From positions 1-64,000 of the forward strand of contig JAJCYT010000021.1 of the NCBI GenBank assembly GCA_029262795.1: DNA of 64,000 nt, in the 5' to 3' direction. Made by a program: the position numbers and the translations under genes. How positions within the stretch are numbered: the stretch's first letter is position 1; each line of letters opens with the position of its first letter. The notes under the pieces were generated by a model. The model saw only the letters and a list, made by a program, of their open reading frames with translations. It ran no database searches and was not told the origin of the DNA. The DNA comes from Candidatus Fraserbacteria bacterium. GTDB taxonomy: Bacteria; Bipolaricaulota; Bipolaricaulia; RBG-16-55-9; JAJCYT01. Shown piece after piece: positions 8,078 to 12,839 of this stretch.

Positions 8078-10348
8078 TTATCGTCGCTTAGAACGCTCAA
8101 AGTTTCTTTCTGGTCGATCGCGGTCTGGTCGGTCACTGCGTTCTGGTCGGTCACTGCGTTCTGGTCGATCACTGCGTTCTGGTCGATCGCTGCGTTCTGG
8201 TCGATCGCTATCCCCTGCTCGGTCAACGGCTCGTTTACTTAGTTTAATGCGGTTTTGATCATCGACGGCCAAAACTTTTACAGAAATGGTTTCACCGATC
8301 TTAACCACATCACTCACATTTTGAACATAGTTTTTCTCTAGTTCTGAAACGTGAACTAAGCCTTCTAGGCCAGGAGCTATTTCAACAAAAGCGCCAAAAT
8401 CTTTTACGGCAGTTACCTTACCATCGTAAATTTTACCAACTTTAACCTCTTCTGTTAATCTTTCGATCATTTCTTGAGCTTTTTGAGCCCCTTCTTGGTT
8501 AACACTGTAGATTGTGATGGTTCCATCGTCTTCTACATCGAGTTGGGCTTTGGTTGTTTGCTGGATATTGCGGATAGATTTTCCTCCAGGTCCAATCACT
8601 ACGGATATTTTATCTTGAGGAACTTTTATCTTAACAATGCGAGGCGCATAAGCTGAAATTTCTTTACGAGGGCGATCTAAAGCCAGCATCATTTGACGAA
8701 GAATGTGAATACGACCTTCTTTTGCTTGCTCAAGAGCCTTGGCCAAAATATCACGGCTAATCCCGTCGATTTTGATGTCCATTTGAAGAGCAGTTACTCC
8801 TCGTTGGCTTCCTGCGACTTTGAAGTCCATATCTCCAAACTTATCTTCGTCTCCTAAGATGTCGGAAAGGATGTAGAAATTATCCCCATCTTTAACTAAT
8901 CCCATAGCAATCCCGCCTACGGGCTTCTTGATAGGAACTCCCGCATCCATCAATGCTAATGTTCCCCCACTTACAGCAGCCATAGAACTGGAGCCATTAG
9001 AAGCTAAAGTTTCGGAAACGATTCGGATGGTGTAGGGAAATCGAGTTACTTCTGGAGTAACCATTTGGAGAGCACTTTCGGCTAAATTTCCGTGTCCGAT
9101 TTCACGGCGAGAAACCCCTCGTAAAGGACGTACTTCTCCTACAGAAAAAGGAGGAAAATTATAGTGCAAGATAAATTTCTTTTTATACTCCTCTGCTAAG
9201 CCATCGACAATTTGCTCATCTCGTGAAGTTCCTAAGGTGGCGGTAACCAACGCTTGAGTTTCTCCTCTTGTGAAGAGAGCAGAGCCGTGAACACGAGGTA
9301 GTAATCCGACTTCGCAGTTAATAGGACGAATGTCTTTTAATCCTCGTCCATCTATTCTTTTATTTTTAGCAATCATTTCCTGGAAAATTTCTTTTTGGAC
9401 TTTTTCATATCCGGCCCGAAGATGTTTTTCGTTTAAAGCTTCTTCTTTGGCTTTTTCTTTGGCTTTGGTTTTGGCTTTGACTTTGGCTTTTTCATCTGTT
9501 TCGGTAAGATACTTTTCTTTTAGTTGCTTCCAGATTTCTTTATTTTTTAAGCTTCGATCTTGTTTTCTTTTAACCTGAAGCCCTTCAGCGATAAGATTTC
9601 GATCTTCTTTGTTATTTAGTATTTTGTAAGCTTTGTCTCCCATGGAAGACACTTGAGGAAGATCTTTTTTCTGAACACCAGATTTCTCGACAATTTCTTT
9701 CACTAACTCGACAATTTCTTTTACCTGTTCATGTCCCCACAGAATAGCATCAATAACATCAGATTCTTTTGCTTCATTGGCTGATCCTTCAACCATGACA
9801 ACAGCCTTTTCTGTTCCTGAAACAACGATTTCGATGTCGCTTTCTTCAAGTTGGCTGTAAGTGGGATTTAAAATGAGTTTGCCGTCGATGCGTCCCACTC
9901 GAACTGTACCAGTCGGCCCGGTAATAGGAATACCTGCCAAACATACCGCCGCAGACGCCCCTACCATAGCAGCAATATCAGGATTATTTTGCTGATCAGC
10001 AGAAAGAACCTGTGCCATGACTTGTACTTCGGATGAGTATCCTTTGGGAAAAAGTGGTCGCAATGGGCGATCAATCAAACGCATAGTCAAGATTTCTTTT
10101 GTTGTAGGGCGTCCTTCTCGTTTGAAAAATCCACCAGGAAACTTTCCTGCAGCAAAAGTTTTTTCTCTATATTCTATGGTTAGAGGAAGAAAACCTCTAT
10201 CTTCTTCTAGCTCTGCCGTCACTACCGTAACAAGGACAGCGGCATCATCGTATCGGACTAAGGCTGCACCATCTGCAAGGTTGGCCATGTTGCCTGTCTC
10301 GATGCTTAGCGTATGTCCACCAATTTTTCTTTCTACTTTGAAACTCAC
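8078..10348 (-). CDS. pnp: Polyribonucleotide nucleotidyltransferase (PNPase)
   Basis: PNPase is the phosphorolytic 3'-5' exoribonuclease of RNA decay. The 756-residue protein shows two RNase PH-like cores (GGFFKREGRPTTKEILTMRL in the first; the second contains FPPFSVGEVRPLRG), then a KH domain with VVIGPGGKSIRNI and an S1 domain starting VGKIYDGKVTAVKDFGAFVEI. Two features lengthen it beyond the usual about 700 residues: a Lys/Ala/Glu-rich insert in the linker between the cores (KAKVKAKTKAKEKAKEEA), and a C-terminal tail of RPERSD repeats encoded by an 18-bp tandem repeat (about 8109-8205). It lies directly downstream of rpsO, the classic arrangement. Confidence 0.97.
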   Translation of the reverse strand: MSFKVERKIGGHTLSIETGNMANLADGAALVRYDDAAVLVTVVTAELEEDRGFLPLTIEYREKTFAAGKFPGGFFKREGRPTTKEILTMRLIDRPLRPLFPKGYSSEVQVMAQVLSADQQNNPDIAAMVGASAAVCLAGIPITGPTGTVRVGRIDGKLILNPTYSQLEESDIEIVVSGTEKAVVMVEGSANEAKESDVIDAILWGHEQVKEIVELVKEIVEKSGVQKKDLPQVSSMGDKAYKILNNKEDRNLIAEGLQVKRKQDRSLKNKEIWKQLKEKYLTETDEKAKVKAKTKAKEKAKEEALNEKHLRAGYEKVQKEIFQEMIAKNKRIDGRGLKDIRPINCEVGLLPRVHGSALFTRGETQALVTATLGTSRDEQIVDGLAEEYKKKFILHYNFPPFSVGEVRPLRGVSRREIGHGNLAESALQMVTPEVTRFPYTIRIVSETLASNGSSSMAAVSGGTLALMDAGVPIKKPVGGIAMGLVKDGDNFYILSDILGDEDKFGDMDFKVAGSQRGVTALQMDIKIDGISRDILAKALEQAKEGRIHILRQMMLALDRPRKEISAYAPRIVKIKVPQDKISVVIGPGGKSIRNIQQTTKAQLDVEDDGTITIYSVNQEGAQKAQEMIERLTEEVKVGKIYDGKVTAVKDFGAFVEIAPGLEGLVHVSELEKNYVQNVSDVVKIGETISVKVLAVDDQNRIKLSKRAVDRAGDSDRPERSDRPERSDRPERSDRPERSDRPDRDRPERNFERSKRR

Positions 10349-10446: not shown

Positions 10447-10716
10447 CTACTTCCGAATACCAAGGCTAGCAATGAGCTCTTGGTATCTCTTAACATTTTT
10501 CTTCTTCAAATAGCGAAGAAGAGAAGTACGTTTCCCTACTAGCATCAATAAACCGCGACGAGAAGCAAAGTCCTTACGGTGTATTTTTAAATGATCTGTC
10601 ATGTTCTTAATGCGTGTAGTTAAGATAGCAATTTGAACTTCGGGAGAGCCAGTATCTTGCTCGTGTGTTTTATATTCTTCTATCAACTCTTGTTTTTTTT
10701 CTGCCGTAATGGACAT
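10447..10716 (-). CDS. rpsO: 30S ribosomal protein S15
   Basis: The 89-residue product is a normal-length uS15, a primary binder of the 16S rRNA central domain. Diagnostic stretches are [29 protein letters not shown] and [17 protein letters not shown]. It heads the rpsO-pnp unit. The 237-bp gap between it and the reverse-transcriptase stop should hold its promoter and leader. Confidence 0.98.
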
Positions 10717-10953: not shown

Positions 10954-12159
10954 TTATTTTGGATACTGTTCCCATTGAGGTCGGGCTGAGGTTTTAGGAA
11001 ACTGTATTTTGTGTTTTTCTAAATATTTCTTGTAGGGAATCCATAATCGGTAAGGAATGCGTTGGTAAACCATTTTAATGAAGGCTACTACGCTCTGAAT
11101 TTCCAGTTTCTTTTTGTCATCAAGTTCTTCAGGAGCCAAAAGCGATGCTTGATGAAACATTGTTCGAAAGGCTTCTAGTTTTGGCGATGGAATCCTGATT
11201 TTATCTTTTTCTAGAATTAATCCTGTTACTTCCAGCTTTTGTCCTCTTGTTCTCTCTGCATAAGAGATTTTCTTAGGATTTGCTTGGAAACCACAATCTA
11301 AGATAACTTTTAGAATTTTCTCCCGAAGATCTTCATGTATTGGCATGGGAGATGAAATTGTTATATCGTCGGCATATCTCGTGTACTGATAAACAGAGCC
11401 ATGTTGACTAAGCAAACGATAGAGATTTTTATCTAAAGTTATACAGGCTATATTTAAAAGATAACCAGAAGCAGGACTTCCTTGAGGTAAAGCATTTTGG
11501 TAAGTAGTTAGCTTTACAAGAAGCTCGATGACTTGATCTAGCACTGGATGAGGAATATCACCTCCCAAGTGCTTCAAAGGAATTTTTAAATACCGAACAA
11601 ATAAATGTTTGATTCTGGTCGCATCTACAGAAGGAAAAGCGGATTTTAAATCGACATTAAATATTGCCCGAGCTGTTTTTAAATGTTTCGCAGCATTAGT
11701 AACAATGGAACGTCCTTGGACAAATCCATGAACAGCATTGGAAACTGGTATGCGATACAAAAGACGATCTAGTATTCTTCTTTGGATGTTTTTTAAAACT
11801 GGTTCGGGAGAAGAAATTTCGCGGAAGGAGTAACCTCCCTCTCCCTTAGGTATTTTCCAAACATGATAAGCTTTATCTTGCTCAAGTAAATCCAAAGCTT
11901 TTTTTACATCTTGAGAGGGGACATCTAACCAACTTGCAAGATGCAAAGAGGCTGCATTGACCAACTGTTCAATGTCGTCTCCTGTGAAGACTTGAGGACC
12001 AGGAGTGGGGGGGACAATAGGGCTTCGTTTTTCCGCTCTAACTTGAAAGTCTAGAATAGTGATACCAGTACACTGAGGGCATTGAATACGACTACCGGGA
12101 AATACATCCACTATTTTCAAAGCCGCACTACAATGAGGACATTGAATATCTACAGCCAT
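10954..12159 (-). CDS. Retron-type reverse transcriptase with N-terminal zinc ribbon
   Basis: The 401-residue protein combines an N-terminal MJ0042-like zinc ribbon (CPHC at 7-10 and CPQC at 27-30) with a reverse transcriptase. RT landmarks are the first catalytic Asp in NVDLKSAFPS (D170), LPQGSPAS (224-231) and the YADD box (Y262-D265). Two motifs point specifically to retron RTs: NAxxH (NAAKH, 155-159, after HGFVQGRSIV) and VTGL (311-314). There is no intron maturase or endonuclease domain. RBS AGGA lies about 11 bases before ATG. A structured RNA with its own terminator lies just upstream on the same strand (12345-12695), the position expected for msr-msd. Retrons are anti-phage reverse-transcription systems; no separate effector gene is adjacent, so the zinc ribbon is the only candidate accessory part. 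An orphan group-II-like or Abi-type RT is the alternative. Confidence 0.85.
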   Translation of the reverse strand: MAVDIQCPHCSAALKIVDVFPGSRIQCPQCTGITILDFQVRAEKRSPIVPPTPGPQVFTGDDIEQLVNAASLHLASWLDVPSQDVKKALDLLEQDKAYHVWKIPKGEGGYSFREISSPEPVLKNIQRRILDRLLYRIPVSNAVHGFVQGRSIVTNAAKHLKTARAIFNVDLKSAFPSVDATRIKHLFVRYLKIPLKHLGGDIPHPVLDQVIELLVKLTTYQNALPQGSPASGYLLNIACITLDKNLYRLLSQHGSVYQYTRYADDITISSPMPIHEDLREKILKVILDCGFQANPKKISYAERTRGQKLEVTGLILEKDKIRIPSPKLEAFRTMFHQASLLAPEELDDKKKLEIQSVVAFIKMVYQRIPYRLWIPYKKYLEKHKIQFPKTSARPQWEQYPK

Positions 12160-12344: not shown

Positions 12345-12372
12345 TAAAAAAACGCCCGGATAATCCGGGCGT
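12345..12372 (-). terminator. Rho-independent terminator of the structured RNA
   Basis: ACGCCCGGAT/TCCGGGCGT forms a near-perfect GC stem followed on the minus strand by seven U residues. It separates the structured RNA from the reverse transcriptase start 190 bases further on. A second AT-rich hairpin (12312-12342) follows immediately. The RT must therefore rely on read-through or its own promoter. Confidence 0.85.
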
Positions 12373-12695
12373 GTGCTCATTTCATAACTGCGCGATGAAG
12401 TTTGAGAGGCCTTCAAGTACTACTGCGAACATAGTTGTACATGCCCCCTGCTGAGAGCTCCATTATATGGGCATTAGCAGAGCACACTAGTAGTACGCAT
12501 ACCCGCATTACAGTTCCGGCATAGTCACCGGACACCTGCACGGGGTGGTACCCGTATAGGGGTATATCCTGCTCATCACTTACAGAAAACCTTACCTCTC
12601 CCCATCGGATACCGATGGCTACACGGCAAAGCCGCACGAGGGACACCAACTAAATTGGTTAGGTAGCCAGTTTATAGAGCGAATTTGTTATAAAC
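12345..12695 (-). ncRNA. Dense structured RNA upstream of the RT, candidate msr-msd
   Basis: Read on the minus strand, this non-coding stretch is full of pairing. GTTTATA/TATAAAC (12689-12695 with 12670-12676); GGCTAC/GTAGCC (12663-12668 with 12617-12622) enclosing ACCAA/TTGGT and CGGC/GCCG hairpins; CATCGG/CCGATG (12612-12617 with 12603-12608); TCCGG/CCGGA (12528-12532 with 12515-12519); the 8-bp GTACTACT/AGTAGTAC (12489-12496 with 12417-12424); and long-range GAGAGG/CCTCTC (12595-12600 with 12404-12409). It ends at a textbook terminator (12345-12372). GC is much higher than in flanking DNA. A TAGC sits right after the first domain and before the CATCGG hairpin, as the branch-site context does in retron msr, but I could not find convincing long a1/a2 repeats. 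It did not resemble tmRNA, RNase P or SRP RNA. Confidence 0.6.
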
Positions 12696-12839
12696 TTATT
12701 TTTTCTAAAATATATTTTTTATTTTCATTTTTATATTAGAAGCATAAAAAATAATCTTAGAAGACATTGTTATTTTCACTAAATGCCTTCGACGCAGTTT
12801 ATAAGGAAGCAAAAAGTTTGTCAAGAGAAAAATCAGGAA

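Follow-up and report, generated by a model that had tools for sequence, protein, structure and literature searches.

The densely folded RNA encoded in the window (the whole stretch of 64,000 nucleotides that was analysed, from a Candidatus Fraserbacteria assembly) is very probably the msr-msd of a distinct retron lineage, whose reverse transcriptase (RT) carries an N-terminal zinc ribbon. Sequence comparison shows conservation of the RNA, covariation of its structure and of its ends, its association with an RT that has the motifs of retrons and a zinc ribbon, and terminators after its 3' arm, a2. The RT probably copies part of this RNA into DNA.

The RNA gene runs on the minus strand from the 5' arm, a1, to the end of the terminator (approximately positions 12346 to 12673) and is kept in nine genomes, in ten copies. 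The original prediction of a GC-rich, densely folded RNA with a terminator was borne out: the GC content is 0.50-0.55 over positions 12350 to 12650, compared to 0.23-0.33 in the flanking intergenic DNA, and the folding energy of the minus strand (-126.1 kcal/mol, z = -3.3) was reached by none of 100 shuffled sequences. The plus strand folds equally strongly relative to shuffles (z = -3.6), and folding energy alone therefore cannot tell the RNA strand, which is set as the minus strand by the terminator and the homologues. The intrinsic terminator, CGCCCGGATTATCCGGGCG-TTTTTTT (12346 to 12372, minus strand), was read in the sequence directly after a2. The RNA had also been described as unlike the common housekeeping RNAs, and a database scan agreed: no Rfam family was matched at the gathering score (best permissive match E = 0.13), and no tRNA or tmRNA was found in the region. 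A possible sigma-70 promoter, TTGACA-17-TAAACT (12796 to 12824, minus strand), matches at 10 of 12 positions, which is not above chance in the window; -35/-10-like elements (TTGACA/TATAAT-like) that are clearer than this one lie shortly upstream of a1 in several relatives. Hairpins with a U-tract, similar to the terminator, follow a2 in all nine of the copies examined on their 3' side (by eye in L087). In these copies the terminator-like hairpins precede the RT gene, which argues against the single msr-msd-RT transcript usual in retrons (PMC8867640), a trait that is not obligatory. The RNA seems to form a gene apart from the RT, with a terminator of its own and with the RT made separately; some read-through from the RNA into the RT gene may occur.

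The next minus-strand gene after the RNA (10957 to 12159) encodes a retron-type RT of 401 amino acids, with a zinc ribbon formed by C7, C10, C27 and C30 and with the motifs NAxxH (TNAAKH), YADD and VTG. It matches Pfam RVT_1 with an E value of 3e-18, its best PDB matches by sequence are the RTs of retrons Ec86 and Ec67 (E values of 1e-22 to 3e-21), and the top PDB matches of its predicted fold are likewise retron RTs (best matches by sequence and fold: Ec86/Ec67/Eco2). Among nine aligned RTs all four cysteines of the zinc ribbon are invariant, and the three motifs are kept except for a change of NA to GA in G103 and G141 and of VTG to ITG in G193; departures at the NAxxH and VTG positions also occur among validated retron RTs (PMC6868368). 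In the predicted model the zinc ribbon consists of four short strands, with a moderate mean pLDDT of 74. The best PADLOC model for the RT was RT_XIII, with 201 bits, whereas a genuine member of type XIII reaches 490 bits. A phylogeny that included other retron-type RTs, from 42 loci, placed the zinc-ribbon RTs together with the Myxococcota tandem-RT proteins in a clade of their own (support 100/100, branch length 1.42), the deeper order being unsure because of long branches elsewhere. Membership in retron type XIII was rejected, as the RT lies outside both the model and the clade of this type. The Myxococcota proteins, from loci L092, L093 and L094, have tandem retron-like RT domains, the first of the IDD and the second of the ADD type, and in L094 the tandem domains and a Ser/Thr kinase-like region lie in a single open frame.

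A genome scan and a search of 392 Planctomycetota genomes yielded eight full-length relatives of the RT (48-63% identity), and a homologous RNA was present upstream of the RT in all eight, although the G100 copy is interrupted by a contig break and lies in two overlapping pieces. The link to a retron, about which the original prediction was doubtful, is thus supported, since all nine genomes pair the RNA with the same retron-type RT. When the DNA sequence and the RT were searched in 100 genomes of the bin's phylum, matches were confined to its own genome, and a single-protein scan of viral contigs gave no match. A covariance model of the 5' module, built from eight sequences, matched exactly the 8 of the 392 Planctomycetota genomes that have a full-length RT and none of the 384 others. 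As seven of these eight genomes had contributed to the training set, and match by construction, the results that carry weight are those for G100, which was held out, for the 384 negatives and for a second match in Candidatus Uabimicrobium amorphum. Among 62 further loci, which mostly surround other retron-type RTs, the model had no match at E < 0.01, and there was no significant match near the double-RT loci of Myxococcota or near other retrons; L138, L183 and L212 gave chance-level scores only.

Common to the copies are a start of the ACUGGC or AUUGGC type, a CCUA, the hairpins, an msr module whose end contains AGG, a middle that varies, and a GCGCAGU or GCGCAAU. All parts of the window copy are on the minus strand. 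The conserved helices are a1/a2, P1, H1, P2, H2 and H3. The 5' arm a1, AAACUG (12668 to 12673), pairs with a2 to form a covarying closing stem, which has only five contiguous pairs in the window. It overlaps a UGGC (12666 to 12669) that is invariant in ten of ten copies, and in which the G at the third position, G12667, is a candidate for the priming guanosine. P1 pairs ACCU (12664 to 12661) with AGGU (12592 to 12589) in the model structure and closes the msr module. P2, CCUC (12641 to 12638) with GAGG (12598 to 12595), encloses the hairpins H2, GCGGC-UUU-GCCGU (12623 to 12635), and H3, CAUCGG-UAU-CCGAUG (12603 to 12617); the hairpin H1, ACCAA-UUUAG-UUGGU, is at 12645 to 12659. Next comes a structured middle of about 190 nucleotides (12394 to 12585), presumed to be the msd template, which is poorly conserved in sequence and measures 158-263 nucleotides in the homologues. 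It is followed by GCGCAGU(UA) (12385 to 12393), found in all copies, which comprises a2 and a GC able to pair with the GC of UGGC. No single conserved 6-mer was found in the msd, the best-shared 6-mers being within the shuffle range. AGTAGT/ACTACT-type 6-mers recur in the ten variable regions (22 occurrences, compared to a shuffled mean of 6.4 and a maximum of 18 in 1000 shuffles), a weak signal in a motif chosen post hoc.

When the ten copies were aligned to the covariance model, a procedure that favours the pairing count, 94.4% of the cells were paired and 20 of 29 pairs had changed on both sides. Compensatory cells numbered 54, compared to a mean of 17 in shuffled alignments, none of 500 of which reached the observed value, and sliding the partners by 1-3 columns lowered the pairing to 37-54%. 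Compensatory changes were found in four of five pairs of H1, four of five of P2, six of seven of H3 (100% of cells paired) and six of six of H2, the latter with 10% unpaired cells in an alignment fitted to the model; P1 had 96.7% of its cells paired and no compensatory change. A hand count over eight sequences, with helices picked by eye, was in agreement, giving 35/35 paired cells for H1, 48/48 for H3, 38/40 for P2 and 45/48 for a1/a2. The end-to-end a1/a2 stem is outside the model and is supported separately: beyond the anchor, the two arms of the stem match each other better than arms swapped between copies do (permutation p ~5e-5, ten copies), as exemplified by GAUAGGAUUG/CAAUCCUAUC in G102, and unguided folding of most copies also gives this stem. 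It is weakest in G103 and in the window, the latter ranking second-weakest of the ten, and the unconstrained minimum free energy of the window RNA favours another fold, the consensus fold being 3.3 kcal/mol worse. Support from covariation across relatives, which the original prediction called for, was thus obtained, but in helices other than the two stems that it had singled out. The long-range GAGAGG/CCTCTC pair is absent from all nine homologous copies, and the GTACTACT/AGTAGTAC stem lies in the variable middle, where it is peculiar to the window copy and not conserved.

The genomic setting of the locus differs among the relatives. Within the class Uabimicrobiia the RT is present in five of the six genomes examined, and each of the five, like the window, has pnp just downstream of it; rpsO was read between the two genes in the window, G104, G101 and G100, giving the order ncRNA-RT-rpsO-pnp. 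In the window, rpsO, the first gene of this conserved neighbourhood, is at 10447 to 10716 and pnp, encoding a PNPase 59-61% identical to the Uabimicrobiia copies, at 8078 to 10348, both on the minus strand. G102 and G103 have the ncRNA-RT pair in other, mutually different neighbourhoods without rpsO-pnp, and in G141 the RT is near a contig end. Identity between the window and Uabimicrobiia is 0.56-0.63 for the RT and 0.59-0.61 for PNPase, and the RT tree broadly matches that of pnp. This shared rate of divergence and the agreement of the trees suggest that the RT locus has been inherited vertically with pnp in Uabimicrobiia. In addition, two divergent pnp matches each were noted in the Planctomycetota genomes G104, G101, G155, G193, G102 and G121. 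Ca. U. amorphum has a second complete RNA copy with an intact msr module (L232:1501-1860), flanked by a helicase gene and a leuS-like gene and having a variable region of 263 nucleotides and its own terminator. No RT lies within this 3-kb locus, one is encoded elsewhere in the genome, and the second RNA would be served by it in trans.

No recurring neighbour other than rpsO-pnp, and hence no candidate for a linked or fused effector, was found across G102, G103 and Uabimicrobiia. An effector unlinked to the RT locus may exist, and some retrons lack clear proximal effectors (PMC8867640). Given the lack of a conserved effector and the inheritance with pnp, a domesticated function of the housekeeping type, or defence through the zinc ribbon of the RT or an unlinked partner, seems more likely than a standard toxin-paired cassette. 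A more specific proposal, still tentative and rather doubtful, is that of a domesticated, effector-free lineage, in which the RT is fixed beside rpsO-pnp in Uabimicrobiia and serves separately transcribed template RNAs in trans; one RT in U. amorphum would then give two different msDNAs, and the role would be cellular instead of toxin-antitoxin.

The host of the retron block is uncertain. Composition and gene affinity shift at ~24-26 kb of the window. The first part (1-24 kb, with secA, pnp, rpsO, dprA and gatAB) is unlike the rest of the window's genome, G000, in composition and closer to U. amorphum, whereas the contig from 24 to 104 kb resembles G000. G000 has a second pnp (on C23), which groups with its own phylum, while the pnp of the window groups with U. 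amorphum, and dprA is likewise duplicated (second copy on C26). The pnp grouping, the duplicated dprA and the composition indicate that the first ~24 kb are probably derived from Uabimicrobiia, and this block may be a large transfer into the genome or part of a chimeric contig.

According to the mechanism that we propose, the RNA would be transcribed from its own putative promoter and released at its own terminator, and a recognition module of ~90 nucleotides would fold from P1, H1, P2, H2 and H3. Pairing of the a1 and a2 ends would present the UGGC guanosine beside GCG|CAGU, and the separately expressed RT would bind the msr module and copy the variable middle into single-stranded msDNA, presumably primed from that guanosine. 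The most serious of the competing explanations, although an improbable one, is that of a DRT-type, non-retron RNA serving as template for a protein-primed or repetitive cDNA instead of a branched msDNA. DRT systems also have a structured ncRNA beside the RT gene (PMC12039810), and the window RT is far from every PADLOC retron type, but its motifs and fold are retron-like, its scores of 46 bits with Drt2 and 29 bits with Drt3a are far weaker than the 173 bits with the St85 retron RT, and covarying a1/a2 ends that surround an invariant G are characteristic of retrons. The inactive remnant of a decayed retron, to which the weak a1/a2 stem of the window might point, is hardly to be expected where the RT is intact with all catalytic and zinc residues; moreover, the RT identity tracks the PNPase identity in the same genomes, implying purifying selection.

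Two other readings set the RNA apart from the RT or tie it to the genes downstream. That the RNA is an independent regulator merely neighbouring the RT seems quite unlikely: it has its own terminator and a copy that stands alone in U. amorphum, yet its presence tracks the RT in the 392 genomes and in several unrelated gene neighbourhoods. The self-standing regulatory RNA of the original prediction is thus matched physically by the U. amorphum copy, but independence from the retron is not favoured, as the 384 genomes without a full-length RT also lack the RNA. Least credible of all is a 5' leader regulating an RT-rpsO-pnp operon by r-protein or PNPase autoregulation. The order ncRNA-RT-rpsO-pnp in Uabimicrobiia would fit such a leader, but the RNA and the RT gene have a terminator between them, G102 and G103 have the pair without rpsO-pnp, and one copy lies between the helicase and leuS-like genes; the r-protein leader was rejected because of these other contexts.

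Retrons are mostly seen as toxin-bearing defence cassettes that are often mobile, and most described ones have an effector. New here, as far as the compared genomes tell, is a previously unassigned retron lineage with a zinc ribbon, a self-terminated RNA, a core-gene setting and no obvious toxin partner. The lineage retains both RT and RNA but lacks a linked toxin; it is apparently passed on together with core genes, and its template RNA is separate from the RT gene, a second one being located elsewhere in one genome. Uabimicrobiia are phagocytosis-like bacteria, and the long-standing question of the role of effector-free retrons can be put to the test in Ca. U. amorphum, whose genome is complete. 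The RNA model can be used to find further members.

Compared to known systems, the locus has the retron RT motifs, an adjoining RNA with covarying complementary ends, and conserved msr hairpins with a variable msd; the linked or fused effector of tripartite retron defence systems was not seen. DRT2 and DRT9 resemble it, by their descriptions, in having a short structured ncRNA beside the RT, but their RT family is clearly different. Retrons Eco1 (Ec86) and Eco2 (Ec67) are the nearest solved relatives by sequence and fold and share NAxxH, YADD and VTG, although identity in the fold comparison is 24-29% and the window has no linked effector or fused Toprim. Type XIII provides the best-scoring PADLOC model, but its true member scores far higher and the zinc-ribbon clade is separate. 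In retrons the priming guanosine directly follows a1, usually within TAGC; the candidate UGGC context is outside the described TAGC/CAGC/GAGC/CAGA/ACGC set, of which TAGC, CAGC, GAGC and ACGC are known retron contexts (PMC6868368). Myxobacterial retrons have an N-terminally extended RT, a large msd, vertical inheritance and a family of RT-less msr-msd copies, Ne160, and Mx162 has a 241-nucleotide transcript with an msr of 71 and an msd of 162 nucleotides (PMC6868368), compared to an msr module of ~90 and a variable part of ~190 nucleotides here. The window system differs from them in its zinc-ribbon extension, a candidate priming context of UGGC instead of CAGC or GAGC, the ncRNA's own terminator, another neighbourhood and a different phylum. 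Nevertheless, with the Mx162 RT likened by its published description, the myxobacterial retrons (Mxa1/Mx162, Sau1/Sa163 and Nex2/Ne144) share the N-terminal RT extension, vertical inheritance and an RT-less copy, and are the closest in organisation.
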